DNA of 47,261 nt from Paenarthrobacter nitroguajacolicus JCM 14115 (GTDB lineage Bacteria > Actinomycetota > Actinomycetes > Actinomycetales > Micrococcaceae): positions 1-47,261 of the forward strand of contig BBFS01000028.1 in assembly GCA_001313365.1 (NCBI GenBank), in the 5' to 3' direction. Of this stretch, positions 16,752-39,090 are shown one piece after another. The notes under the pieces are model-generated. The model was given only the letters and a program-made list of their open reading frames with translations. It was not told the origin of the DNA and did no database searches. The translations under genes were made by a program, and so were the position numbers. Numbering within the stretch: the stretch's first letter is position 1; the number at the start of each line of letters is the position of its first letter.

Positions 16752-18025
16752 TCAGCTGGCAGGACGACTAATCCGCAGACGCACCAGACGGTACACGATG
16801 CCCACCGCGAACATCAGCACACCCAACCCGGCTGATACAGGCGGAAGGGTGGCAGCAAGAGCCACGCATGCAACAGCACCTGCCACCTGAAGGAACTTAG
16901 GGTAGCGGCGGTCTTCCAACGGCTGAGTGTAGGCGGCGATGTTGGCAACCAAGTAGTAAAGCAGCACGCCGAATGATGAGAAGCCGATAGCCCCACGAAG
17001 ATCAGCAACTGCGATAATCAGGCAGATCACTACAGCTAACGTGACTTCAGCACGGTGCGGGACCTTATAGCGCGGATGCACAGCGGAGAGCCAGCGCGGA
17101 AGATCGCGTTCGCGGGCCATGGCCAGGCTCGTCCGGCCAAGCCCTGCGACGAGTGCCAACAACGCACCCAGAGACGCAACGGCTGCACCGACTCTGATTA
17201 CGGGCGAAGCCCAGCAAGGTGCCTGCACCAACCGCGTCGGCCAAGGGGGGTCGCCGTAGCAGCCACTCCGTCGGGGGGGCCAAGAGCCGCCAGAAGAGTA
17301 ACCGCTATGACGGCGTAGATGACGATGGTGATCCCCAGCGCAATACTGATCGCCCGGGGGGGTATCGTGCGCTTGGGCTCACGCACTTCCTCACCCATCG
17401 TCGCGATCCTCGCATACCCGGCAAACGCGAAGAACAGCAGCCCCGCTGATTGCAGGATGCCGTACCAGCCGTGGGCCAGCAGCCCCTCGCCCATAAAGCT
17501 GTCAAAGTCAGGACCGGAGCCACCCCCCCAGACCGCCGCGACAGCAATCGCCAGGGCAGCAAGTACACCGACCACCAGCACGCGCGTCAGCCCGGCGGTG
17601 CGGGTCACTCCGTGATAATTCACAGCGGTCAAAATCACGACGGCGGCAATCGCCACCGGGCGCTCCCAACCTTGCGGTGCGGCATAGGCGGCGAAGGTCA
17701 TCGCCATCGCAGCGGCACTCGCTGTTTTGCCGATGACGAATCCCCCCCATCCTGCTAGGAACCCGGCCCAAGGGCCGAGCCGTTCCCGACCGTAGATGTA
17801 CGTACCGCCGGAGGTTGGATAGGCCGCAGCTAGTTGAGCGGACGAGGTCGCGTTACAGAAGGCAACGAAGGCAGCCACCACCAACCCGATCAGCAGCCCT
17901 GATCCCGCGGCAGCGGCGGCTGGGGGTAAACGCTGCAAAGACACCGGCGCGATCATTGACCCCAAACCGATCAGCGATGCGTCGAACGTACCTAGTCGGC
18001 GGGCCAAAGCCGGAGAGTTGCTCAC
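16752..18025 (-). CDS. APC-superfamily amino-acid/polyamine transporter (frameshifted)
   Basis: An integral membrane permease of about 425 residues. TM1 should read LIGLGSMIGAGVFAAFTPAA but is split over two frames near 17940-17960. Later segments include AAAYPTSGGTYIYGRERLGP (the family's P-x-x-G-G-x-Y), FVIGKTASAAAMAMTFAAYA and GLLFFAFAGYARIATMGEEV. The C-terminal part (LVAGLGRTSLAMARERDLP, VPHRAEVTLAVVICLIIAVA) is in another frame after breaks near 17270 and 17220. The start is ATG at 18025, 12 bases after the LuxR stop, so the pair is probably one transcript and the substrate may be the regulator's signal. Substrate not predictable. Confidence 0.85.
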
Positions 18026-23002: not shown

Positions 23003-24407
23003 CTAAGCTTGCTCGAGCTCCAACTGCGGCGCAGGCTTGCGGAATCCGCGAGTCAGGAAGGCCAAATAGACCACGCCCACGCCCGCCCATGCGATCCCGA
23101 ACGTGAACGACAACCCACTCAGACTCGTCCACAGCCATGCCGTCAGGGCAAAACCCATGCCTGGCAGCACAAGGTTGCGAACCACGCCCCCCCGAGCTCC
23201 GCGTGCCTTCTCGTCAATGAAGTAATGCTTGATCACGGCCAAGTTGACTACGGAGAAAGCAACCAGCGCACCGAAGCTGATCAGCGATGAAATTGTCAGG
23301 AGATCCAAGACAAAGGCCAGAAGCGAAACGGCTGATGTCAGGAGAATTGGAAGCACGGGTGTGCGGAATCGAGCGTGAAGCCGACCCAACGCAGCAGGGA
23401 ACACACCGCTTCGACCCATCGAGTGAATGATTCGCGAAACGGACGCCTGAGACGTCAGCGCCGATCCAAGACTTCCTGCAATGTATGCGGCGGTGAAGAA
23501 GGCGACGAGTAAGTTTCCGCCCGCTGCGCCAATGACTTCGATGGCCGCCGCGTCCACATCCTTGAATGTGCTGACCGGGAGTACAAGGTGGCTGATATAC
23601 GCGAGTCCAAGGAAGATCACACCGGCCAGCACGGTGGTTAGCATGATGGCCTTGGGCAGATTGCGCTTCGGGTCCTTTGTCTCCTCAGCGAAAGTGGAAA
23701 CGGCATCGAATCCTAGGTACGACAGGCACAGAATTGCGGAGCCAGCCAATATCGGGGGAGACGCCCTCAGCCCCCCATCGACGCCGGTGAACGGAGCCAT
23801 CAAGTCAAGATTGCCGGTGCCGGTAATTGATGACAGTCCCAGCGCAACGAACAGGACAATGAAGAGCGCCTGAAGTCCCACCACAACGAAGTTGGCCTTG
23901 GCAATCGCGGTGATGCCCAAGATGTTCAGAACGGTCACGGCCAGGATGGAGACCACCATGAATACCATGCAGGGACGGCAGGGAATGCGGCTTCCATGTA
24001 GATTCCGATAAGCAGGTAGTTGATCATCGGCAGCAGCAGATAGTCCAGCAAGAGAGACCATCCAGCCATAAAGCCAAGCCCCCCCGCTCCAAACGATCGC
24101 GTCGCGTAGGTGTATGCCGATCCCCCCCCGAACGGGAATGCTTTCGCCATCCGGCCATACGAGCGCGCAGTGAATAGCATGACCACCAACGTCACTGCGT
24201 AGGCGGCAGAAAGGCGTCCGCCGGTCAACTCCACAACGATGCCGTAGGTGCTGAAGATCGTCAGCGGCACCATGTAGACCAAACCCAGCAACACCAGCGA
24301 GGGAACGCCGAGAACGCGGCGCCAACCTGGTTGGCGTTCTGAGCGGACATTGGCCCCCCCACAGGCTTCTCGCCTGCCGGTGTATCAGTATCGAACGTGG
24401 GGGTCAT
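23003..24407 (-). CDS. APC-family amino-acid permease (frameshifted)
   Basis: A 12-segment permease of about 465 residues. It starts at ATG 24407 (MTPTFDTDTPAGEKP) behind AGGA. The core reads LVYMVPLTIFSTYGIVVEL, MAKAFPFGGSAYTYATRSFG, SYLGFDAVSTFAEETKDPKR (the conserved FEE-like loop as FAEETKDP) and SLGSALTSQASVSRIIHSMG. Frames break near 24310, 24120, 24080 and 23960, two of them at C7/C8 runs. The FAEE/DPKR block and length place it with the amino-acid/polyamine permeases such as PuuP and YhdG. It is monocistronic here. Confidence 0.87.
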
Positions 24408-25280: not shown

Positions 25281-28200
25281 CTACTGCGCCACTGCCGCTC
25301 CCTTTGCGAAAACGTCCGCCGGCATCTGGCGCTGCAACTTCCAGGTAATCGCGATGGGCTTCTCGCCTGAATGCTCGACATAGTCAACCGGCCCAAGACA
25401 GGTGTATGGAACGGTCAAGCCTGTTTCGTCCTCAGCAGTTTCGCGCGTGAACAAAAGGATCTGAGAGCCGTGCAGCTTCCGATCCAAATAACGCCTTCCA
25501 ACCGGGCTGGATGGCGCAGTACTGTTTTGCGACTCCCAGTGGAATAGTTCCGGGCTGATCGCGTAATCCTTGTACATCGTGGTTGCCGAGTGCTTCCGGT
25601 CATCTTTGTTGAGCGTGACGAAGAAAGCGTCGGTCGCCGTTGCAGGGCACCAGGCCACACCTTCGCGGTGCTGAACATTCTTTCCCAGCTCCAGCGACCC
25701 ATACTGAAGCGCCGCTAGAATTTCCTCACGTCGGTATGTCGCATGAGACAACAAGGGTATGTGTTGAAGCCCGGCACCTAAGCCCTTGGCCGCGTGCTTC
25801 GAGGCCATCACTCCCAAACGGACGATCTGGCGAATCTCGCTGCAGACAAATTGGTATTGGCGAAGGTGGTCGAGACCGTCGTCGTAGGTCTTGAAATCGC
25901 CGCCATCGTCCCAAAGCGTGTAAAACAGCATTCGCGCATAAGTCTGTTCCCGAATGCTCAGCTGTGAATAGCGGGGGGGTGCGTCGGCATCCACGAGCAT
26001 GGAATACGCTTCCGCCCGTTCCGGATCGTCGATGTGGATGAGAGCAGCCATCCGCCCAAGGAGCTTCTTTTCGTGGGCACTTGAACGATCGCGGTGGACA
26101 CCTTTGAGCACTGACTCAAGACCAGAAAATCCCTCAATGAGCTGGGCTTGGCGAAGGTAGCCTGTCCACGAGTCACGGGTCGAGCGGTAGATCGTCTTCA
26201 GGTCGTTGCCTGATTCACGTAAGTATGCGGCGAGCTCGATTTCCCCCCCATACGAGGCCACGTCTCTGACCAACTGATTCCGATTGAAGCGCAGCTGGGC
26301 TTTAATGTTGTCCAACACGACTTTCTGCGCCACGCGGTCCAGCACAATTTGGGACCCTGATGGAAGATACGGGAATTCTTCCTCGACAGCCTTTTCGAGT
26401 TGCTTTCGTCCATAGCCGGTAAGCGCTCTGTAACGCAGATCGAAACGGAACTCTCGGCGCTGCTGGCCAATGAAATCCAAGACCGTTAGTACGGCCTTGT
26501 CGTCCGCTCGCCTCAACCCACGACCCAACTGCTGCAGGAAGACTGTGGCGCTTTGCGTAGGCCGCAGCATGAGGATGGTGTCCACTTCGGGGACATCAAG
26601 GCCCTCGTTGAAAATGTCCACGGCGAAAATACACTTGATCTCTCGGTTGCGAAGCTGTTCCAAAGCGCCGGTACGCGCAGCTTCATCGGTGCCACCGTCA
26701 ACCGCAACCGACGGGATACCGGCGTCGTTGAACACCTTCGACATGTAGTGGGCGTGCTGGACGGAGACGCAGAAGCCAATAGCGCGCATGTGTTCAGTGC
26801 CGACGACCTTGTCCCGAAGCTCCCGAATGACCTTGGCGGCGCGGGCGTCGTTGCCCGTATACAGCCGGTCGAGTTGCGAGGTGTCGTAGTTCCCACGCCT
26901 CCACTCCACCTGGCTGAGATCGACATCATCGGAGACACCGAAATAATGGAACGGAACCAGTAAGTCGGCATCCAACGCGTCCCAAAGACGTAGCTCGCTG
27001 GCCGTTCGCCCCCCCTCGAAGAATTCATTGGCGACGTTGCCACCATCGCCGCGTTCCGGCGTAGCAGTCAGGCCTAGGAGCTGCTGGGGTTGCAGGAACT
27101 CGAGTAGTTGGCGATATGTAGGTGCCAGCGCATGGTGGAACTCGTCGATGACGACGACGTCGAACTCCTTGGCCTCAAACTTGTCGATCCCAAGCGACGC
27201 AAGAGACTGCACTGAAGCAAAGAGATGCGTCCACCGCTGCGGCCTGTGATCACCCACGAAGAGTTCACCAAAGGCGCCATCCTGCATGACGTTTCGGTAG
27301 GTTCTTAGGGATTGCTTCAGGATCTCTTGTCGGTGAGCCACAAAGAGCAGGGTTAAGGGCCTGCCCGCCGCTTCACAGAGGCGCTTGTAATCTAGCGCTG
27401 CAATGACTGTCTTACCTGTCCCGGTAGCGGCCACCAGAAGATTCCTGTTGAATCCCTTTGACCTCTCAGCTTCGAGGTCTTCAAGCATTTCTTCCTGATG
27501 AAGAAACGGCACGATTTCGAGGCCTGTGACGTCATCTGGAGCAGCCGTCCGCTTACCCCCCCGCTGCGTTCCAACGCAGCATCCAGCTTGTCGCCGTCAC
27601 GATCGGGGTCATAACTCTGGAATGCCCGTTGTTCCCAATAGCTGTCGAAAGTGACCTCGAACTTCTTGAGCAGAGCAGGCGTCGCAACCGAACTCAGCCG
27701 AACGTTCCATTCAAGACCGTCTAGGAGCGCAGCTTGACTCAGGTTCGAACTGCCAACGTAAGCTGTGTCAAAGCCGGTGTCCCGACGAAAGAGCCAGGCC
27801 TTGGCGTGTAGGCGCGTTGCCTGCGTTTCATAGCTGATCTTCACTTCAGCGGCATAACGGCGAACGAGCTCGTCGATGGCCCGACGCTCGGTGGCTCCCA
27901 TGTAGGTGGTCGTGATAACCCTGAACTTCACACCGCGATCTCGCAACTCTTCAAGGGCTGGCTGGAGAAGCCTCAGACCTGTCCATCGCACAAAGGCGCA
28001 AAGCAGGTCGACTGTGTTTGCCGATTCAATTTCGGATCGAAGTTCAGCTGCAAGATTGGGATCTTCTTTGCCATTGGTGAGCAGCGCAGAATCACTGAGT
28101 TTCGTGGTGGGCCGTCTGAGTTGGCGGCGCTTTAAGGCGTCCAGTCGGTGCAACGAGAGCAGCTGACGAGGGCCAGGGGGGGTAATCTGGTTGTCGGCCT

Positions 28201-28489
28201 GTACCTGGGACAGGAGCCGGTTGGCTAGCTTGACGCGTTCCTCCGGCTTGGCAGCCGTGAGCGCCTCCCTGACTACTTCGGCGATGTGGCGAGAGAGTAC
28301 GTCCGGGGCGTCGTCTTCGTGAATCGCATCAACTGTAGCGCTGAGTTCCGGGACTAGCGCGAGCTTGGCTTCCAGACGCCTCGTTTGCAGGAGTTCGTAA
28401 AGCCCTTCAGGGAGCACTGTGCTCCCGACTTCCCCCCCATCGAATGTATTCACATCGCCAGGGTATTGGGTAGGAGAGACAATAAACAA
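25281..28489 (-). CDS. PLD nuclease-SF2 helicase-DUF3427 protein
   Basis: A large protein of about 1,065 residues. The N-terminal third carries a phospholipase-D-type nuclease half-site, HAKAWLFRRDTGFDTAYVGS with SSN, the H-x-K-x4-D form. The middle is a superfamily 2 helicase: Walker A AATGTGKTVIA, VIDEFHHA, GLTATPERGDGG and the motif VI QQLGRGLRR. The C-terminal third is DUF3427-like (GRRYLDRKLHGSQILLFTRE). One break near 27545, at a C7 run between nuclease and helicase, splits it. The start is uncertain: ATG 28489 is the longest, and GTG 28450 is closer to the family start. Such fused nuclease-helicases are common in genomic islands and are suspected of DNA defence or repair; this role is not proven. 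Confidence 0.85.
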
Positions 28490-28519: not shown

Positions 28520-28738
28520 CGTTCAGACAGCCGAGGCCAACGAGGCAGCTGGAATCAAGTTCCGATATGCCAATTTCACCTGCTTGCGCGGAACAAGCGG
28601 CGCACGAACACCACCCCAACTAACTGCAACCCCGACAACGCCTTCCCCAGGAATACGAACCCGAGTACTCGTAGCTACGAGCGGGCTCAGGAATCCCAGG
28701 AACGACACCACCATCGTCGGCAACCTCTGAATCCCCCC
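28520..28738 (-). pseudogene. EamA transporter C-terminal remnant
   Basis: The minus strand reads VVSFLGFLSPLVAT in one frame, then LGFVFLGKALSGLQLVGVVFV in the next. This is the last two helices of an EamA/DMT exporter, very like the end of the intact copy at 35579-36450 (AVSFLGFLSPLVATFLGFAF). The first eight helices are absent, so this is a fragment left beside the cluster. Confidence 0.65.
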
Positions 28739-28750
28739 TGAACCAGACCC

Positions 28751-29082: not shown

Positions 29083-29773
29083 TCAACTCTCGAACAAGAA
29101 TTGACCGCTCTGAACGATCAGGCGAAAGGGTTCTAAGACACCGACCGTGACGACGGCGTCGCTCACCAACACAGATCTGAAGTAGACATCCCCCCCAGCC
29201 ATCATGAGGTCGTCCATGTTCCGGCGGTAGTTGAAATTCAACGGCGTCACGTCTCCGAGACCTCGTCTGCCAAGCTTGACCAGGCACTCGTGAACGGTCC
29301 ACCGGGTTACTGCAAACCGTTGGTCGATCTGATCCGCCCCAGCTGAGAGCAGGATTCCCAGGCTCTCAAGGTTGTGCACACGGGGGGGCGGAAACTCCTC
29401 ACAATCCACTGCGATTTCGCTATTTCGAGAGGTGGCCACGGCTACAACACCGCCTGAGTGCGCGATCGAAACGTGAATAGGCAAACCCTCGATGCTTGGT
29501 CGACCATGCGCTCCCCCCACACGTTTCGCAGAACTGGGCAATTCGCACGGCGGTCGCGGGAACGTGAAATTCACGCCCGACAACTAGCCGCGTCAGGCTA
29601 TGCCCGAGCGTAAATGTCTCCTGCGCACTAGCGGAAGCCAGGTTATCGAGTCGGCGAAGCTCCGGCTCAGTCAGCAGCATCTTGGCGACCTCAAGGGACT
29701 GTCGACTAAGTCTGGATATATCAATCACCCATAGGTGCACAGTCGCCACGGGATCCTGTCTGCTGGCAGACAA
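29083..29773 (-). CDS. Sfp-type 4'-phosphopantetheinyl transferase
   Basis: This enzyme moves the phosphopantetheine arm of CoA to the carrier-protein Ser; here the target is surely the PCP of the adjacent NRPS. About 230 residues. The N-terminal half has LTEPELRRLDNLASASAQET and FTLGHSLTRLVVGREF. The C-terminal half has HVSIAHSGGVVAVATS, the metal-binding IAVDCEEF (family D-x-E), and WTVHECLVKLGRRGL (family W-x-x-K-E-x3-K-x2-G-x-G, with His at the first Lys). The frame breaks near 29525 (C6 run). The start is TTG 29773, or GTG 29749. It is the last gene of the leftward cluster and overlaps the HAD gene end. Confidence 0.85.
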
Positions 29774-30473
29774 GTACTAGAAACCTTTACGTTCGGTCGC
29801 GATGGCTGCGAATGTCCTGCGCCCATGAGTTGGGAAACACTTGCCCAATTCCCCCCCACTGCGCCCTGGAAACTTCCGTGCACGCTTCCGGCTCCTGCTT
29901 CTGCGAGATCTGACGCCCTACCTACTCCGTAGCTGACACCTATAGTCCTAACGCCGGCCCTTCCTCCTGACTGGATGTCATAGCGCGAGTCGCCGACCAT
30001 CACGGCATACTTCGGTGGAACCCCAAGTCTTTCCAACGCAGCCAGGATCGGTGCCGGGTGGGGGGGCTTTGGATCTGCCACATCATCCGCACCTACGACC
30101 AGGTCTATGGCTGACACCAGGCCAGCGCTGGCTAGGATCTCAAGAGCCCCCTGGTGATTCTTGCTGGTAACGACACCAATCGACCATCCAGCTTCCCGAA
30201 GTTGCTTCAAGCCGACTTCCACAAAAGGGAAGACCAGACCTACCCCTGTCGGAACGATTCGTTCTATGTACCTGCGTCTATAGCCGGAAGCGATACGGTG
30301 TGCGTGATCGGCATCCTTGTCGGCCAATGCTTCAGCAATATCGTCTAAGGGGGGAGACCGACGAGGGCACGAATCGTATCGGTTACTCGGATCGTTTCCT
30401 CTCTTAGCGCAGCCACGATCATGGAAGGAGTATCAAGGAGAGTGCCGTCAAGATCGAAGAGCGCTGCCTTCAC
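29725..30473 (-). CDS. indB: HAD-family phosphatase (IndB/MinC-N-like)
   Basis: A haloacid-dehalogenase phosphatase of about 235 residues. Motif I is LFDLDGTLLDTPS, near the N terminus. Motif II lies at IGVVTSKNHQGALEILASAG. Motif III Lys is in ADDVADPKPHPAP, which here reads KPPHP because four C became seven. Motif IV is VMVGDSRYDIQSG. A C1 helical cap lies between motifs I and II. In indigoidine loci the equivalent gene is indB, and in the minimycin cluster a phosphatase of this kind dephosphorylates the nucleoside monophosphate. I chose GTG 30473; breaks lie near 30350 and 29855. The real stop may be nearer 29776, since the tail after NVKV looks out of frame. Confidence 0.83.
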
Positions 30474-30552
30474 GAGCTTCTCGAAACGACGATGTCGGCA
30501 CGTCGGGTGTGGTCCCGTGCCCTAGCGTTCGCGGTACCAGTGAGGACCACCA

Positions 30553-31536
30553 CTAGGACTTTTGCCCGTCCCCTGGAACAAGGGCATCCGGCCTGGTTGC
30601 GTAGGAGGCAAGTTGTCCTGCGACCTCTGCAGTACTGATGAGAACAGCCTCGTTCGCAGCTGATGACCGCCCATTTGTTGCGCGATCAATAGCCCGCATG
30701 AGGAACCGAGTAACATCCTTCCCGACGATGTCAGCTCTCTGGGCTGCCTGCAGGGCATCCTGTACAGCCGCCTGTGCCTCTGAAAAGTCGATTGCATCTT
30801 CGTGCCTGGGCGGTGTCGTCACCACAACGGCTGTCGAATTGCCCAGCGCCCAGTGTCGCTCTGCCGTTGCAGCCAGAAGTGCCGCGTCATCGATTCGTTG
30901 TGGGCTTCTAATTCCGCTGCTGCGGCAGTAGAAGGCTGGGAAGTCATCCGAGCGGAAGGACACGACTGGGACGCACTGCGTCTCCAGAAATTCCAAAGTC
31001 ATTGGCAGATTCAGGATGTTTTTGGCGCCCGCACAAACAACCATTATGGGTGTGCGGGTAAATTGAATCAGGTCTGATGAAATATCCATAGTTGTCTGGA
31101 CGCGTGGTGGACACCTCCGATTCCCGCCGAGCAGAAATGCTTAATGCCAGCTGCATGGGCAGCAACCATGGATGATGCCACTGTGGTGGCACCCATGCCA
31201 CCGGCTGCAAGTGCATGACCCATGTCTCGGCTGCTGACTTTGGGGGATGCCCTTACCTGTTGCGAAACGCTCAATGAGCCATCGGTCATGCCCACGAGTA
31301 TTTGACCGTTGTCGATGCCAATAGTGGCGGGAACAGCCCCCGCCCCCCCGCCGCACCGCATCCTGTACTTTGATGGCTGCCTCCGCATTGCGAGGATATT
31401 CCAAACCGTGCGTCACCACATTGGACTCCAGCGCCACAACCGGACTCCTATCCTCGAGCGCAGCTGCGACTTCCGGGCTGATAACAACATTCAAGGGCGA
31501 CACGCCATTTCCTTTTGCCATAGTTACTGCGGGCAT
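30553..31536 (-). CDS. indA: Pseudouridine-5'-phosphate glycosidase PsuG (IndA/MinB-like)
   Basis: PsuG enzymes reversibly join a pyrimidine-like base to ribose 5-phosphate through a C-C bond. Conserved blocks are VVALESNVVTHGLEYPRNAE (with the catalytic Glu), GAVPATIGIDNGQILVGMTD, SSRDMGHALAAGGMGATTVA and SSMVAAHAAGIKHFCSAGIG. These are followed by the catalytic-Lys block TPIMVVCAGAKNILNLP. The C terminus reads GKDVTRFLMRAIDRATNGRS. The first third shifts frame near 31345 (C7 run) and 31095. The start is ATG 31536, 12 bases after the NRPS stop. Beside a glutamine-cyclising NRPS, the likely substrate is the oxidised glutamine ring, giving a C-nucleoside phosphate. Confidence 0.9.
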
Positions 31537-31548
31537 GGTCTACCGTCC

Positions 31549-34500
31549 CTACAAGATGACAAGGTCTGCCTCATCCAACGGTGTTGGTGGGTCATCAGAG
31601 ATTCTTTTTACGTCCTGTGGCGCATCAAGTTCAATCGCACCGATAGCTTGAACGAGCTCGTCAACGTCATCCGCTAGCAGGCTGTAGTGGTCGCCCTTCA
31701 GAGTGCGAACATATGGGGTAACAGCCGAGTAATTTGGGTAAGCATCGAGGAACGAATAGTCATCACCTGCGGCCTTGATTATGGCAACTTTGGCATTGAG
31801 TTTCCTGCCTGCCAACTCTTCAAATGTGTACTCGAATTGGAAGGTACGATCGACGATACGAACGATGCGACGGACCACATTTGATTCCAGCCTGGGCATC
31901 GACGCAGCCATGAAGGCCACGAAGGAGCCCTCGTCATGTACCTCGCTGAGACACTGCTCGACCTTCTCTCCACGGATCGTTCCAGCGAAGACCGAATAGA
32001 GGATTCGCAAATAGATCGCGTCACTGAAGCTGGTAGTGCGCTGTGTCGCGGACGTGGCGCCTTCGATCATCGGGTTGCCGGGACATAGCAGCACAAGTCG
32101 GTCTACAACGTGCCCAGCTTGCTCGAGTTGCCAAGCGACTTCAAATGCCACCCTTGCACCAAAGGAATATCCCCCCCAGAGCGTATAGGGCCATGCGGCT
32201 GCACTTGCAGGATCTGGTCAATGTCTGCCCGGGCCATTGAGTTGATGTTGGCGAAGGGCTCCTCGGCAGCATTGATCCCCCCCAGGCTTGCACCCCCCCA
32301 GAAGTGGGCGCTCCGAAATCAAGGCTCCTAGGGCGCGCAAGTTCATGGGCGAACCGCCCAATCCCGGCCAGCAAAAGACTGCCCTGCCCGCCGTGCAAGT
32401 ATTGAGCTTTATCAAGCGCGAGTCATCTTGCCGTGCAGCGTCTACTTGCGCTGCGAGTTCGCGGAGTACTGAATGCCTGAAAAGAGTCTGCACCTTCAAA
32501 CTTGCGTTGCGCTGCTTATTAATGCGGTTGACGAGGCTGACAGCAGTCAGCGAGTCCCCCCCTCCCATTGCAAAGAAGTCATCCTCGGCTGACACATCTT
32601 TGTAATTGAGAAATTGGGACCACAAGCCGGCGAGCCAGCGTTCGGTGCGACTACGTGGATGTACAAGCCGCCTTGTCGGTCGGAACGTTTCCCGCTGGAC
32701 TCCTACACGGAGCGACTGTAGATCAACCTTTCCATTGGGGCTCAGAGGAAGGGAATCCATCACAAGCGTGCGTGCAGGAATCATGTAATGAGGTAGGGTG
32801 CGGCTGAGGTCATCCCTGATCATCTCAGCCGGGCCGCGCATGTGGACTTTGTCTCATCCATGCCCTCGCTATCAATCTGGTTCTGCGAAACTTTCCCGCC
32901 AAGAGCAAAGTACGATGCTCCAGGTACTTCGCCAGTGCCTTTCAGCAACCAATCCAGACGAACGGATGCCGGCAGCGGGTTGCCCGTTTTGGAGCTGTAC
33001 CCGGCGGACATAAGACCAAGCCCGGACTGGTTATTCTGGAGCCGGTGAAGCGCGCGGCCCAGCGCAATGTACTCCAGCCAGTGCCAGGTGCCTGTGTGAC
33101 CATCGAAATGCCAAACGAGGACCGGGTAAACACTTCCTGATTAATTGCAATGACGTGTGTCGGCTCAATACCAAGTGAACCAATCTCATGAAGCTGTCCA
33201 TCACGAAACTTGTATAAGCCGGATCGAGTCCTTGCACGCCACTTCCATGAGACTGGACGTAGTACGTGACCATTTCCGGGAAGTCCCCCCCAGCATGTCC
33301 CGGCGAAACCTCAAACGTACCTAAGTAAACATCTGAGCCAGCGGGTTGAAGATGCACCTGGAGCAAATCATTGAAAATAGCAGGTCGTAGCGACAAACCT
33401 TGCTCTGCGAGCGCTTCCTCAAGCATCCCAACCATATGACCGGCTTCTAATTCCAGAACCTCACGAACATTGACCTTGTAAACGCCTTCGATGGCGTCCC
33501 GACGTCCAAGAAGATGAAACGTGAGTTGAGGTCCAGTGCGAGCATGTTGCTGACAGGCCCGGCATACGACGCCGATTCGTACAACTGATGGTGGATGGGG
33601 TGGTAGTAGTACGTGCCGTCCGGGATCCCCCCCGGGATGTTACGCACGGAGATAAATAATTGTGTCGCGTAGAGTGCTCCCGGCGAGGCATAAGAAAATT
33701 TCGGGAGGAGTCGTTCGGGGCTGTGAAATTGCCCGAACCAGCGCAGTAGCTCGCCGAGCTGTGTCAAAGACAAAACGGAAGGATCTCCAGGGGGCGACGA
33801 TTCCAGGCCTCTCGGTCAACGTGCCGACGATGTCATCGCGAGCCACGTCTCCCCCCCGTCGAAATGCCGGTATGTTTTGCGGGCAAATGTACGTCGGCGC
33901 TGATTTTGGGTTCCAGCACTGTTATCCAAAGCAATCCGGCGATTACCCCCGGAGTTCATCGTCCGTCCTGACCCCGGGATCTGACAATTGAGCTCGCACC
34001 TGAACGCGACCAACCTTGGATTGATGATGGGAACCATGATGGCCCTGATCCATTAGCGCGGCCCGTCGGGCGTCGAGCTCAACGCAAGCCACGAGCGAAT
34101 CCCGACCAGTACGGCTGTCTTCTACAACCAACGTGGCCGCTCGCCGGACCCAGGGATGCTCTTCAATTCTGTGGCTTACTTCGTCGAGCTCAATTCGGTG
34201 GCCGTGGAGTTTTACTTGACTGTCCCGGCGGCCTTCGAAACGAAACAGTCCGTCCTCATCCTGGCTGACGATATCGCCTGTTCGATAGTAGATCTGTGGT
34301 CCACGTCCGGCTACGGTTACGAATCGCTCAGCTGTGAGTTCCGGGCGGTGGAGATACCCTCGCGCCAATTGCGGTCCACCGACGAGTAGTTCGCCCGACT
34401 CCCCCCCTTCGCTGACAGGGATCATTCCCTCGTCAACTATTAGGAAGCTGCAGCCTGGAATCAGTCGACCTATCGGCACAGTGCGAGCTCCGCTTCGGGA

Positions 34501-35468
34501 CCTTGAAGCTGTGACCGTATGGCTGGTGACGTTGATTGTGCACTCCGTGGGGGGGCCGTACAGATTAGTCAAACGGGCATGAGGAACCTCAGCTAAAACA
34601 TCCTGTGCGAGCACTTCACTGAGAGCCTCCCCCACCGCTGAAGATATGGCTGAGACTAGTCAGGGTCGCCAAACGCTGGGTGTCCACCAACGCCCGAAGG
34701 AGGGTGGGGGGGACTGCCTGTAGAGTCGTTACGGAGTTGGCGCTCATGGCATCAATCAGCGCATCAGGGTCCCGGTAAAGCCCCCCCGGCTGGCCCACCG
34801 CAATGCAGGCACCGGCAGCATTAGCCAACAACTCCCACTGTGCGGCGTCGAAGCTGATAGGTGTCTTGTGGAGGACCACAGCCTCTGGACTGAGGTGGCC
34901 GGCTGATTCCAACCAACGAATTTGGTGGGAGATGGAGCCGTGCTCGATCGCAACGCCCTTAGGCCGGCCCGTGCTGCCTGACGTGTAAATTACGTAGCTA
35001 GGTTCTCAAGGGCAGGGCCAGCCAGCTTTGGGCCTTTCACAATTGACTGCGACAGGTCCTGCAAATCGGACATCTGAACTGCCGAGCGCAACCTGCCCGA
35101 GAGGCTATTGCCCAAGTTGCGATGACTTACGACAACGCTTGCCTGCGAATCCTCAAGCATCTCAACCAACCGTTCCTCCGGGTAGTCCGGTTCCAGAGGC
35201 AGGTACGCGTAGCCCGCCCTCAAGATCCCCCCCAAACCGTGACGATGAGATCGATGGAGTGCTCCATGAGTACCCCGACGATCCTGTCCTCTGCCGGCGA
35301 GTATTGTGCCTTTCTGAGGTTCAGTGCAACGATTTCGCTGCGCTGCTTAAGTTCCCCAAAGGTCAGTTCCTTCAACCCGTCCTTGACGGCCAGCGCATGG
35401 GGACGTAGTCGAACCTGCCGGTCCAACATGTCGATCAAAGACGCAGAGCTATGAATTTTGGCAAGCAT
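31549..35468 (-). CDS. indC: Single-module NRPS, A(Ox)-PCP-TE, indigoidine synthetase type
   Basis: About 1,300 residues, the size of IndC/BpsA. The adenylation domain opens SSASLIDMLDRQVRLRPHAL; core motifs are YTSGSTGRPKG, NLYGPTECTINVTSH and GRRDSQVKLHGHRIELDEV. The specificity positions read D-A-W (FDAAQWE), Q (TLQAVPT), F-G (IFSGGE), L (NLYGP), I-N (CTINV), i.e. DAWQFGLIN plus the A10 Lys, a glutamine code. After RAALMDQGHHGSHHQSKVGR comes the inserted flavin oxidase domain (ATQLFISVRNIPGG, PDGTYYYHPIHHQLYE), then A10 LPLSPNGKVD. The PCP reads DDFFAMGGDSL and the TE reads GYSFGARVAFEVAWQ, ending at 31549. Breaks and one-residue insertions lie at many G/C runs (for example 34550, 33300, 32280). 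The start is ATG 35468. The product should be cyclised, oxidised glutamine, dimerising to blue indigoidine if free. Confidence 0.93.
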
Positions 35469-35578
35469 GTTTTGTCCGATTCCATGAAATGACGATTTAG
35501 TAGTTTGTGGCCCCCCCAACCTGCATTAACTGACGGCGTATCGTCAGCGCAGAGAGGCCTTTTGCGGATTCTCCCGCT

Positions 35579-36450
35579 TTAGAGTGTAGGGGGGGATCTC
35601 TGAGCGAAAAGCACCGATGCCAGGACCAGAACAGCGCCCGCAAGCTGAAGGGGGAGTGAGCGACTCCCCCTAGGAACGCGAATCCGAGGAAGGTGGCCAC
35701 CAGAGGACTTAGGAACCCCCAAGAACGAGACGGCCAGAGCCGGAAGGCGCTCGATCCCTCGGAACCAGACAACGTATGCCAGCAATGCCCCGACAATACT
35801 CAAGAACGCGAAGCCCGCCAGGTTGAGGCTCGAGAGTTCTTGCGGCAGCCCTTCGGCCACTAACGCCACCGGTAAAAGCATCACCCCGCCCATGGCAAGC
35901 TGCACACCGGTAAAGCCAAGAAGACCAACCCCCCGGCGGACGCCCCCACCTCTTGGTGAGCACAATTCCCGTTGCCATACTCAGAGCCCCCCCACCAGCC
36001 CGGCAAGAATGCCGACGGCCGTGAGTGCTGCCTCCGATCGCAGAACAAGCAGGCCTATACCCAGAGCCCCTACGGCGCAGGCAAGAATGTGCGCAGCGCG
36101 AATCTTCTCCCCCCAGCAACACGGCCCCCAAGAAGCAGTACGAACAACGGCTGTATGGACATCACGAGCGCTGCGACTCCGCCTGGCAACTCGTAAGCAG
36201 TGAAGAACAACAAGAAGAAGAACAACCCGATATTCAGCGCCCCAAGGGCAGCAGCTTTGAACCACCAACTGCCTCGGAGCACGGTGCGTGTTGCCAACAT
36301 CAGGACCAAGCCAGCTGGCAGAGCACGGATCGTAGCGGCCAACAACGGACGATCGGCCGGAAGAAATTGAGTGGTTATCAGATACGTGGACCCCCCCCAC
36401 ACGATGGGCGCGAATGCAGTGATCACTAAATCTGACGGCGAAGCCCTCAT
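35579..36450 (-). CDS. pecM: EamA/DMT exporter, PecM-like
   Basis: A ten-helix drug/metabolite exporter of about 290 residues. The first half reads PIVWGGSTYLITTQFLPADR, the family TM1 pattern, and LGALNIGLFFFLLFFTAYEL. The second half, in other frames, has VGILAGLVGGALSMATGIV, LAMGGVMLLPVALVAEGLP, FLSIVGALLAYVVWFRGIER and AVSFLGFLSPLVATFLGFAF. The start is ATG 36450, overlapping the previous gene by ATGA. Breaks lie near 36110, 35985, 35930 and 35715. In Dickeya the family member PecM exports indigoidine, so export of the cluster product is the expected role. Confidence 0.87.
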
Positions 36451-37140
36451 GGTCTGGGACCATCCGTACCAAAGAAGCGGTCACCGAAATCACCGATTCC
36501 TGGCACCATGAACGCATTGGCATCCAACCTTGACTCAACCGACGCCGTGACAATATCGATCTCCGGGTGCGCTGACAGGACCCGTTCAAGCCCTTGAGGC
36601 GACGACAACAGATTCAAGACAATTACCCGTGGGCTACTGACCCCGACGGATTCGAGAACCGCAAGCGCGGTCATGAGTGAACCGCCCGTTGCCAGCATTG
36701 GCTCAAGTAGCAGGACATGTTGGTCTCCGACTTCTAGGGGGTAAATGTGAGTAGAACAGCTGTGGCTCTTTGGTTGTCTTGTCTCGCTGGATGAGGATCT
36801 TGCCCAAACGCATTTCGGGAGCAATGGACCATAATTCGTGCTCAAAGCTCTCCCCGGCACGGACAACAGAAACCGCGCAAACTCTCTCGGTGAGCGTCTG
36901 TCCTTCAAAGACATGACCAGCGGGTGTGATTACTGCTTTGGGTTCGGTCGGCAGGAGGCCAACACCGGCTTCCAAAAGCAATCTAAGGATCCGACGGGAT
37001 TGCGTAATGAACACCTGGCGCGTTGCGTCCCGATCCCGGATTCTCGTTTGCGCGTCCATTAGATTCGCACTCGCTGGTAATACATGAACTTGACGTGGAA
37101 CCACGTAGTCAGTCGAAGCGCTCGTGGCTGCCCTGTTCAA
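36447..37140 (-). CDS. Uracil phosphoribosyltransferase-like protein (MinD-like)
   Basis: About 230 residues of the UPRTase family, which makes UMP from uracil and PRPP. The N-terminal hood has RQVHVLPASANLMDAQTRIR. Next comes VCAVSVVRAGESFEHEL, the family R-A-G motif. The PRPP loop reads LLLEPMLATGGS (usual form DPMLATGGS, so Asp is replaced by Glu). The C-terminal uracil site is VPGIGDFGDRFFGT. One break lies near 36740. Start and stop both overlap neighbours by ATGA. In the minimycin cluster, MinD is a UPRTase that protects the producer by raising the UMP pool. A self-resistance role is inferred here; the housekeeping gene should be elsewhere. Confidence 0.87.
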
Positions 37141-37821
37141 TTTGCTTGGCTTTCAGCGAATGCGATCCTAGCCTCGCTGACAAATCGAGTGACCTTGTCC
37201 AGGTCCTTTCGTTTGTTTACCCCCTCCAATCCTGTGTGAGCGTCAACCGCAGCCGGTTGAACTGCTCGGATCGCATCTCCCACGTTTTCGGGGGGGGTCA
37301 GCCCACCGGCCAGCATTAGCGGCCTCTCTGATCGCGCCACAAGCTGCGCACTAACTGACCAGTCATGCGTTCGACCAGTGGCACCCCTCGCGCCCGTGGC
37401 CTCGTGGAATGTATCCGTGATGAACATGTCCACGTGCTCTTGGGTAGCGTCAACTTGGGTGAGCAACTCTTTTATGTTGCTCTCACGAACGATCAACGAC
37501 TTGAGCACACCGAGATCGGGACGCAGGCGTCGCAACTTCGAAATCTCGGTGACACTTACCTCGCCGTGAAGCTGAACTGCTGAGAATCCCAACCAATCAC
37601 AGTACTTCGCAATTTCGTCCGCATCGGTCAAATAGCTGACCAACACTCCTGCGCGGTCTGCAGGTAAGCGTCGCAGTATGGAGTGTGCATCGCTTTCAGA
37701 GATGTCATCCATACCTGACGGCAAACGAAGTGGAAACCCCCAGCCAGTCCACGCCACACCCGACGAGCAGGTCAGCCTCCGCTTGGTCTATGATTCCAGC
37801 TACCTGAATCAGGTTCTCCAT
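37137..37821 (-). CDS. Phosphoribosylanthranilate isomerase-like (TrpF-family) protein
   Basis: A (beta/alpha)8 barrel of about 228 residues. It starts at ATG 37821 (MENLIQVAGIIDQAEADLLV) and moves into a second frame at a G5 run near 37738 (DWLGFP). Family blocks are SAVQLHGEVSVTEIS, MFITDTFHEATGARGATGRT with HDW (the phosphate-binding GGTG region, here GATG), PLMLAGGLTPENV (here with an extra Pro) and VDAHTGLEGV. TrpF-type enzymes carry out an Amadori rearrangement of a phosphoribosylamine. No other trp gene is near, and ATGA overlap places this one in the biosynthetic operon. It may act on a phosphoribosyl intermediate of the product; this is inference. Confidence 0.82.
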
Positions 37822-38502
37822 GAACTACCCCTAGTTGTTTGTTGTCCGGAAATGCGGCCGATTGGCCGTAATTGTTGTCAAAAATGTGCTTGTCGCTCAG
37901 GCGGCCCGGGTGGGCGGGAACATGGTCGGCATATCCGAGTGCCATTACGAGAGCGATTGCGAGGTCGTCTCGATCTTCAATGCCAATCACTTGCTTCACC
38001 GCTTGCTCTTCCCATCCGTTCATGGGAGCTGTCGCCAGCCCTTCTGACTGAGCGGCCAGCATGCAGAATGAGGCGGCAATCATTGCGTCCTTGACTGCGT
38101 ATTCACGCAGGAGACCCTTATCCTTCAGCCTTGCTGAAACGTCCGAGCAGTGAACACGGAGGTTTCGGCGTACTCAGCGGACCAAGCACCCCCCCGGTCA
38201 ATTGCCACTTCATGCATGGTGGAATGGTCAGCTTCTGGATGGTCGAGCTCCCCCCCGACAAAGACAAGAGTCACCGGCGCTTGGGCCACGGCACGTTGCC
38301 CACCGGTAGCTCGAACGAGAGCAGCCCGCGCATCGGTGTCATTCACGATGACCACCGAACGGGACTGATGGTTCCAGCTTGAAGGTGCTTCCATGGCCAA
38401 TCTGGTAATCCGATCCAGAACGTCTTTCCCTACCGGCGTGGGCAATAGGTGCCGAACAGACCGCCTGGCGAGGATTGCTTTCGGCACACTCAACTCGTTC
38501 AC
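37772..38502 (-). CDS. Nitroreductase-family flavoprotein (frameshifted)
   Basis: An FMN-dependent oxidoreductase of about 235 residues. The N terminus reads AILARRSVRHLLPTPVGKDV (FMN phosphate site R-R-S-x-R) and LAMEAPSSWNHQSRSVVIVN. The second half, after a break near 38150, reads RLKDKGLLREYAVKDAMIAA, SFCMLAAQSEGLATAPMNGW and IALVMALGYADHVPAHPGR. The start is GTG 38502 with GAGGTG upstream. The end at 37772 overlaps the TrpF-like start by 50 bases; a one-base error would put the stop just before that start. As the first gene of the leftward cluster it faces the PecS-like regulator. Its role could be redox tailoring or detoxification of the pigment. Confidence 0.8.
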
Positions 38503-38519
38503 TGTTCACCTCAGTATAT

Positions 38520-38540
38520 TTCGACATCGAACTATTCGAT
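38520..38540. promoter_or_regulatory. Overlapping dyads in the pecS-nitroreductase gap
   Basis: TTCGACATCGAA (38520-38531) is a 5-bp inverted repeat, and ATCGAACTATTCGAT (38526-38540) is a second with a 5-base spacer. They form an AT-rich dyad in the centre of the 88-base divergent promoter region. They are candidate PecS operator sites for the leftward operon. Confidence 0.5.
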
Positions 38541-38562
38541 AATGAACAATGTAGGTGATGTA

Positions 38563-38580
38563 GTGTTTGAGGTCAAACAC
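38563..38580. promoter_or_regulatory. Perfect MarR-type palindrome before pecS
   Basis: GTGTTTGAGGTCAAACAC is an exact 8-bp inverted repeat with spacer GG. It ends directly before the AGGAG ribosome site and 10 bases before the regulator ATG, the right place for autoregulation by a MarR-family dimer. Confidence 0.7.
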
Positions 38581-38590
38581 AGGAGTGGCT

Positions 38591-39090
38591 ATGGAGCAAG
38601 ATGCGGTCGACAGGATCCTCGAACAATGGCAGCGTGAGCGGCCTGACCTAGACGTGACTTCCATGGGAGTCATGGGTCGACTTACAAGGGCGAGCCGCTT
38701 GGCCTCGTTGGATCTTCAGGAGTTCATGAGTCAATTCGGACTTGAGCCTGGGAGTTTGATGTCCTGGCAACCTTGCGGCGATCTGCTGCCGAGGGGCCCT
38801 TGACGTCCGGGCAGCTAGCCAGTCTTACGATGGTCGGTTCAGCTGCCATGACGAACCGCGTGGATCGTCTTGTTGCACGAGGCTAGTCCGCCGTGAAACC
38901 AACCCGCACAATCGTCGGCAACTCTTAATCAGTCTCACGCCAGACGGCGAAGCCTCGCGGACGAGGTAGTCGAACACCACGTGATAAACCAAAAGAAAAT
39001 GCTCCGCGGACTGTCGAAGAGCGAAATGTCGAACTTGGCGGATCTCCTCCGCAAGTTCCTGCTGTCACATGACGACGCCGGGAAAAGCTA
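38591..39090 (+). CDS. pecS: MarR-family regulator, PecS-like
   Basis: About 165 residues. The N-terminal helix reads ILEQWQRERPDLDVTSMGVM, closely like PecS and the urate-responsive MarR subgroup (W-R-x-E-R-P-D-L-D). The winged helix continues GRLTRASRLASLDLQEFMS, FDVLATLRRS, SAAMTNRVDRLVARGLVRRE, then LLISLTPDGEALADEVVEHH. Breaks lie near 38757, 38882 and 38955. The start is ATG 38591 after AGGAG. It is divergent from the cluster and has a perfect palindrome just upstream. In Dickeya, PecS represses indigoidine genes and is divergent from pecM; control of this cluster is the natural inference. Confidence 0.87.

Follow-up and report, generated by a model that had tools for sequence, protein, structure and literature searches.

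A TrpF-like gene with an altered active site marks a candidate class of C-nucleoside-type gene clusters

Results

Gene content of the cluster

Here we describe a biosynthetic gene cluster of Paenarthrobacter nitroguajacolicus JCM 14115, which is built around an indigoidine-type non-ribosomal peptide synthetase (NRPS) and contains a homologue of the tryptophan-biosynthesis enzyme TrpF. It lies in contig BBFS01000028.1, of which a stretch of 47,261 nucleotides was analysed (the window). A minus-strand run from approximately 38.5 to 29.7 kb encodes, in this order, nitroreductase, TrpF (phosphoribosylanthranilate isomerase, PRAI), uracil phosphoribosyltransferase (UPRT; UPRTase in Pfam), EamA, AMP-binding, PP-binding, Thioesterase, Indigoidine_A/PsuG and HAD domains, as identified with Pfam in stop-free pieces scanned separately. 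Together with a probable 4'-phosphopantetheinyl transferase (PPTase) gene and a divergent regulator gene, the features are as follows (A, adenylation; Ox, oxidase; PCP, peptidyl carrier protein; TE, thioesterase).

38591..39076, plus strand: PecS-like regulator of the MarR family, transcribed away from the operon, frame-broken (tblastn: MarR of Millisia locus L002, 5.6e-27; MarR of Corynebacterium aurimucosum, in two frames)
37775..38505, minus strand: nitroreductase-family flavoenzyme, two pieces (PF00881 on both; 44-62% to the best cluster copies)
37140..37821, minus strand: TrpF-like protein, catalytic Cys replaced by Ala, acidic Arg36 site, broken near the N-terminus (PF00697; N-terminal piece with QVAGI; intact homologue P0001; family signature; model of P0001)
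36450..37152, minus strand: UPRT, two pieces (PF14681 on both; motifs RAGESFE, EPMLATGGS and PGIGDFGDR)
35500..36480, minus strand: EamA-family exporter, three or more pieces (PF00892 on two; up to 71% to the Millisia copy)
31552..35525, minus strand: NRPS of one module, A(Ox)-PCP-TE, of the type of indigoidine synthetases, in at least six pieces (PF00501, PF00550, PF00975; core motifs; 60-64% to the Millisia protein for three pieces out of five)
30525..31539, minus strand: PsuG/IndA-like C-glycosynthase, three or more pieces (PF04227; AGAKNIL motif; 68% to Millisia)
29728..30480, minus strand: HAD phosphatase, two pieces, start approximate (PF13419; motif I, DLDGT, upstream in another frame; 48% to the Millisia HAD)
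29086..29776, minus strand: probable PPTase, two pieces (84% identical to the 219-residue P0121; motifs VDCE and WTVHE)

The Pfam matches reach 44.1 and 37.5 bits for the two nitroreductase pieces, 68.1 for PRAI/TrpF, 90.9 and 111.5 for UPRTase, 29.7 and 32.7 for EamA, 46.1 and 182.5 for Indigoidine_A/PsuG, and 88.3 for HAD_2. In the NRPS, AMP-binding scores 24.5 (below the 29.9 cut-off), 85.5 and 54.6 bits, PP-binding 48.4 and Thioesterase 36.4, with no Pfam match on the three pieces that separate A from PCP. The Ox domain is apparent from alignment to relatives and from the motif MDQGxHGSHHQSK in an A-domain piece, which we take to be the BpsA-type Ox insert. The architecture of an indigoidine synthetase (A with inserted Ox, PCP, TE) is hence present on separate pieces of the window, and the intact NRPS of a Rhodococcus relative (locus L034) comprises A, PCP and TE without a condensation domain. 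Conserved motifs include those for adenylation, the Ox insert, the carrier serine and the thioesterase serine and histidine of the NRPS, the PsuG lysine, and the UPRT and HAD motifs, whose functional meaning is our own assignment. The Rhodococcus relative of the window PsuG resembles the structures of AlnA and PsuG. Rhodococcus L034 has eight of the nine genes in identical order, with an alkene reductase inserted between PsuG and HAD, so the gene set is not a chance assembly.

The gene set proposed by the first-pass annotation, which was made from this DNA alone, is borne out by Pfam or tblastn for eight of nine genes. Support for the PPTase is weak, as neither piece has a Pfam match and its relative P0121 scores 20.1 bits for ACPS against a curated cut-off of 25. 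Tautomerase, alkene reductase and phosphoribosyl pyrophosphate (PRPP) synthetase gave no tblastn match in the window at E 1e-3, and no tRNA was found in it.

Frame breaks in the assembly

All nine genes are split across two or more frames, including the TrpF-like gene, the first 28 residues of which sit in another frame, and the ATGA overlaps and very short gaps pointed out earlier at gene junctions are consequently not usable at face value. The window contains 123 G/C runs of seven or more bases (77 of C and 46 of G; 107 of them exactly seven long), compared to about 11 (7.4 and 4.0) expected from a first-order model, and no such runs occur in 19-20 kb of the relatives L002 and L034. The window TrpF-like piece is 100% identical, over the aligned 97%, to P0001, an intact protein of 226 residues listed under P. 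nitroguajacolicus; matches to this species reach 99-100%, with P0002 as a second intact copy, so that the description of the genome as 'Arthrobacter-like' was near. Based on the excess of seven-base runs and the intact P0001, the breaks are most likely homopolymer errors of the assembly. That the cluster is instead decayed and non-functional, as nine broken genes out of nine might imply, is very improbable, also considering P0002, the intact PPTase-like relative and the preserved core motifs.

Active site of the TrpF-like protein

In TrpF, Cys7 presumably serves as the general base, Arg36 in carboxylate binding and Asp126 as the general acid. All 71 distinct cluster copies of the TrpF-like protein (73 rows, in which L083 and L084 are the same records as L037 and L038) have Ala at the cysteine site, retain Asp126 and carry Asp or Glu at the Arg36 site, and the alanine is also present in the window piece. 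Furthermore, His152 and His194 are invariant in this family, unlike in TrpF, and Asp136 is invariant as well. The fold, as adopted by the model of P0001, is common to both, whereas the cysteine exchange and the acidic Arg36 site set the family apart, and its best score, 114.9 bits, lies below the cut-off of 215 for the NCBIfam TrpF equivalog (EC 5.3.1.24). With the general-acid aspartate kept and the general-base cysteine and carboxylate-binding arginine gone, its substrate is likely a phosphoribosyl aminopyridone that it opens, isomerises or re-closes, in place of the Amadori step of tryptophan synthesis.

TrpF-type clusters in other genomes

Genome contigs were scanned with an alignment of the TrpF-like family, keeping 80 of 100 relatives. 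Loci L001-L069 stem from Streptomyces, Rhodococcus, Millisia, Microbispora, Micromonospora, Pseudoalteromonas, Rheinheimera, Chromohalobacter, Agrobacterium, Epibacterium and others. Using tblastn, UPRT was detected in all 69, no more than 300 bp downstream of the TrpF-like gene in 65, along with NRPS (65), PsuG (63), tautomerase (53), EamA (51), alkene reductase (34), MarR (32), PRPP synthetase (22) and nitroreductase (13). NRPS and PsuG co-occur in 62 of these loci, and contig ends cut five of the remaining seven. The window shares the defining traits of the type, i.e. a TrpF-like gene with Ala at Cys7 and an acidic Arg36 site, located beside UPRT, with an Ox-containing NRPS and PsuG.

Millisia brevis L002 provides the best match for seven of twelve window pieces (48-70% identity) and is, together with Rhodococcus L034, nearest in gene content. 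HAD is present and tautomerase undetected in both, but they differ from the window by an alkene reductase and by the lack of a detected PPTase-like gene (the L034 contig ends after HAD); in L002, the nitroreductase was not detected either.

No other cluster gene was detected in the remaining eleven loci, L070-L080. Seven of them (L070-L076) form a deeper Ala-type lineage, without NRPS, PsuG or UPRT in the fetched stretches, some of which are short, while L077-L080 have the canonical cysteine. In the Ignavibacteria loci L070 and L072, the Ala-type gene adjoins genes that by eye resemble DAHP synthase and prephenate dehydrogenase, again with neither UPRT nor NRPS in the stretch; an older role of the Ala-type protein is possible there.

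Whether the UPRT base pocket hints at a new substrate was considered, and the idea was rejected, since the L034 protein matches solved UPRTs, with PGIGDFGDR shared; the best-matching one is from Toxoplasma. The aspartate of the PRPP motif is a glutamate in many, not all, cluster copies.

TrpF-like and DUF4243 genes as alternative partners of PsuG

With the Ox region of the Rhodococcus NRPS as query, 43 places were found in 40 of 295 Streptomyces genomes, and the neighbourhoods of all 43 were fetched, as were two from the genus of genome G022 (taken as Arthrobacter). PsuG is present in 13 of the Streptomyces loci, 12 of these with UPRT, and was not seen in 30, one of these with UPRT and six in which one NRPS flank is shorter than 4 kb. 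The 13 PsuG loci comprise eight with the TrpF-like gene, four with DUF4243, none with both and one unclassed (L138, on a 5.7 kb contig), with a Fisher p of 0.007. The eight include the search centre's own locus, L149, without which p is 0.010. UPRT thus tracks PsuG, which in turn has two alternative partners. Among the Streptomyces loci without a detected PsuG, only L147 has UPRT, accompanied by EamA.

The four DUF4243 loci, called by tblastn from questin-oxidase open reading frames and coinciding with four full-length PF14027 matches, combine NRPS, PsuG, HAD, DUF4243 and UPRT. This is the minimycin gene set given in passages of PMC8724604, and the loci are known from genes alone. The eight others have the TrpF-like gene, UPRT, PsuG and NRPS without DUF4243; one of their genomes, G880, shows a weak partial PF14027 match elsewhere on the chromosome. 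Among 20 TrpF-type genomes, 15 have no DUF4243-family match at E 0.001; five do, four of them above the cut-off, and no cluster genes lie within 3-4 kb of these five matches. In the error-rich window, PF14027 was absent from the 20 cluster and 30 flank pieces scanned, which cover part of the frames. The window HAD is 42-43% identical to the HAD part adjoining DUF4243 in loci L141 and L142.

According to the same passages of PMC8724604, MinC is a HAD-DUF4243 protein whose C-terminal and then N-terminal domains turn the C-riboside into minimycin. The minimycin (oxazinomycin) cluster minABCDT has in common with the window an indigoidine-type NRPS, a PsuG-like C-glycosynthase, a HAD phosphatase, UPRT and a transporter, whereas the window lacks a detected DUF4243 or tautomerase and adds TrpF-like, nitroreductase and PPTase-like genes. 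The gene-content comparison suggested by the first-pass annotation hence returns NRPS, PsuG, HAD and UPRT as shared, with TrpF-like in place of DUF4243, and the minimycin-like product that it proposed is not supported, since DUF4243 is absent from the scanned pieces and TrpF-like and DUF4243 genes do not share any of the 12 classed Streptomyces loci. The shared genes would be accounted for if the cluster made minimycin with an unrelated enzyme substituting for DUF4243, but with DUF4243 missing from the scanned pieces and from most TrpF-type genomes, we regard this as distinctly improbable. Rather than being a bystander, the TrpF-like gene appears, from gene content, to mark a separate cluster class, distinct from the minimycin class.

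Candidate indochrome-type loci in the genus of G022

Indochromes are C-ribosides, and a blue pigment of this type could arise if PsuG C-ribosylates the aminopyridone, HAD takes off the phosphate and the resulting riboside dimerises. In the genus of G022, two of 204 genomes have an Ox-NRPS (L143 and L144), both with MarR, UPRT, EamA, NRPS, PsuG and HAD, and neither with TrpF-like or DUF4243 genes, making them candidates for the indochrome pathway. No named indochrome producer is among the 120 matches listed for the L144 NRPS. A Pseudarthrobacter indochrome paper reportedly exists, by its title in a reference list. Arthrobacter is said to produce indigoidine and indochrome in a passage of PMC6262435, and the open-access passages on indochrome that we found name no genes. 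The NRPS of Arthrobacter antioxidans gives blue colour in E. coli (PMC13405713, in part), and a word search of the accessible text returned neither ribosylation nor mass spectrometry.

The presence of HAD and the lack of DUF4243 in the scanned pieces would suit such a pigment as the product of the window cluster. However, an indochrome needs neither a TrpF-like protein nor a nitroreductase; the TrpF-like gene is missing from both L143 and L144, and was found in none of 206 genomes from the genus of G022 and 395 from its family, a weak negative given retained overlaps between the sets and no positive-control genome. An indochrome-type product is accordingly a possibility that we rate as rather unlikely.

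Relation to other pigment clusters

The black-pigment cluster of C. aurimucosum plasmid pET44827 shares with the window the PecS-like regulator, TrpF-like (48% identical), UPRT, NRPS, PsuG and EamA genes, but has a separate tautomerase and a NAD(P)H-binding protein, and its annotation lists no HAD, PPTase or nitroreductase. PMC2830990 ties the set to the pigment, and its authors speculated that the NRPS is activated by the phosphoribosyltransferase and TrpF proteins. Blue Pseudomonas have an accessory region, containing trpD, trpF, trpA and trpC, that has been connected to their blue pigment (PMC8490086, PMC8701193). This c4_BAR region resembles the window in linking a second trpF to a blue pigment, named leucoindigoidine/indigoidine in the available portion of one review, but differs in gene set, as trpF is accompanied by trpD, trpA, trpC and others; no Pseudomonas of this kind is among the 80 loci retained in the TrpF-like scan. 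A link of TrpF to indigoidine-like blue pigment is therefore already in print, and what is new here are the TrpF-type class and the rewired enzyme. Among the open-access papers listed, none was seen to describe a TrpF-like step for such NRPS clusters.

Discussion

Based on the gene set, the conserved motifs, the absence of DUF4243 from the scanned pieces, and the co-occurrence of UPRT with both TrpF-like and PsuG, all at the level of sequence, we propose, with a probability of roughly 0.55, that the cluster makes a C-ribosylated, glutamine-derived pyridone of the C-nucleoside type and belongs to a class distinct from that of minimycin, with the TrpF-like gene as its marker. The C-nucleoside character assigned in the first-pass annotation is in line with the A-Ox-PCP-TE synthetase accompanied by PsuG, HAD, UPRT, exporter, PPTase-like and regulator genes.

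Several points weigh against this proposal. No product of the strain is known, and the function of the TrpF-like protein is deduced from residues. The intact whole cluster was not seen in P. nitroguajacolicus, as the neighbourhood of P0001 lies outside the data and a PPTase search gave no protein so named. The related Streptomyces loci are not independent. HAD was detected in only two of the 69 TrpF-type loci, an undercount, since at the tblastn sensitivity used the HAD gene of L034, if not others, escaped detection; nevertheless, dephosphorylation does not seem to be uniformly encoded among these loci. Finally, plain indigoidine is possible as well: native extracts of Epibacterium ulvae U95 show HPLC/MS peaks matching indigoidine, as stated in parts of PMC7989816.

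The U95 cluster (L036) shares the order TrpF-like, UPRT, EamA, NRPS, PsuG with the window, but has tautomerase and alkene reductase, with nitroreductase and HAD not detected. Known ind loci likewise join the NRPS with IndA and IndB, so that PsuG, HAD, UPRT and the TrpF-like protein might be supply or salvage proteins. Conversely, PsuG was not seen in 30 of the 43 Streptomyces Ox-NRPS loci, known from genes alone, and seems dispensable for such NRPSs, and U95 fosmid 19F10 is antibacterial and not blue in E. coli, with other indigoidine genes stated to be absent from it (PMC3564156, in part). That this fosmid carries the L036 cluster rests on a statement in the consulted parts of PMC7989816, not on its sequence; the same source terms the clone antinematodal, an activity absent from Table 1 of PMC3564156. 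Taken together, we consider plain indigoidine improbable.

For the favoured C-ribosylated pyridone, the following pathway can be envisaged. The NRPS, primed by the PPTase, would activate, oxidise, cyclise and release glutamine as an aminopyridone, which if left free dimerises to indigoidine. PsuG would couple the aminopyridone to ribose 5-phosphate, HAD would strip the phosphate and the nitroreductase might adjust the redox state of the ring, prior to export by EamA. UPRT could protect the cell by raising UMP, as proposed for MinD, with the MarR protein controlling the cluster. The TrpF-like protein would replace the DUF4243 branch, handling a phosphoribosylated aminopyridone on an uncharacterised path from the indigoidine precursor. 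Candidate products are a new C-riboside, a dimer resembling indochrome, or indigoidine.

More speculatively, UPRT and the rewired TrpF could form a TrpD/TrpF-like relay, in which UPRT loads the phosphoribose of PRPP onto the uracil-like aminopyridone and the TrpF-like protein, which lacks the general base, opens or migrates the sugar, leading with PsuG to a C-nucleoside of new scaffold. PRPP would then be supplied by the PRPP synthetase gene seen in 22 of the 69 loci, which was not found in the window, and UPRT would be a biosynthetic rather than a resistance enzyme. We hold this relay to be doubtful.

Clusters of this kind are labelled 'indigoidine' or 'minimycin', and even two homologous reference clusters bear different product labels, as seen in portions of PMC12701797. 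The TrpF-like gene offers a simple marker that would separate a third class, present in actinobacteria and proteobacteria and without an assigned product, and suggests that C-nucleoside biosynthesis employs a sugar isomerase whose active site has been redesigned.

The G+C content of approximately 19-40 kb is 0.56-0.61 (2-kb windows), compared to 0.60-0.66 in the flanks. Together with the failure to find the TrpF-like gene in related genomes, this fits horizontal gain, and the cluster was probably acquired in this way; no near-match to a plasmid was found. Past the PPTase-like gene, a 30-residue EamA-like piece (28643-28732, minus strand; 53%, 1.7e-6) is perhaps the remnant of a second exporter; the surrounding piece, 28526-28750, has no Pfam match. 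Adjoining the cluster, PLD-domain, ResIII helicase and DUF3427 pieces (25281-28489, minus strand) make up a restriction-like gene in two frames, and two amino acid permease genes (16752-18022 and 23003-24322, minus strand) lie near and in the low-G+C stretch.

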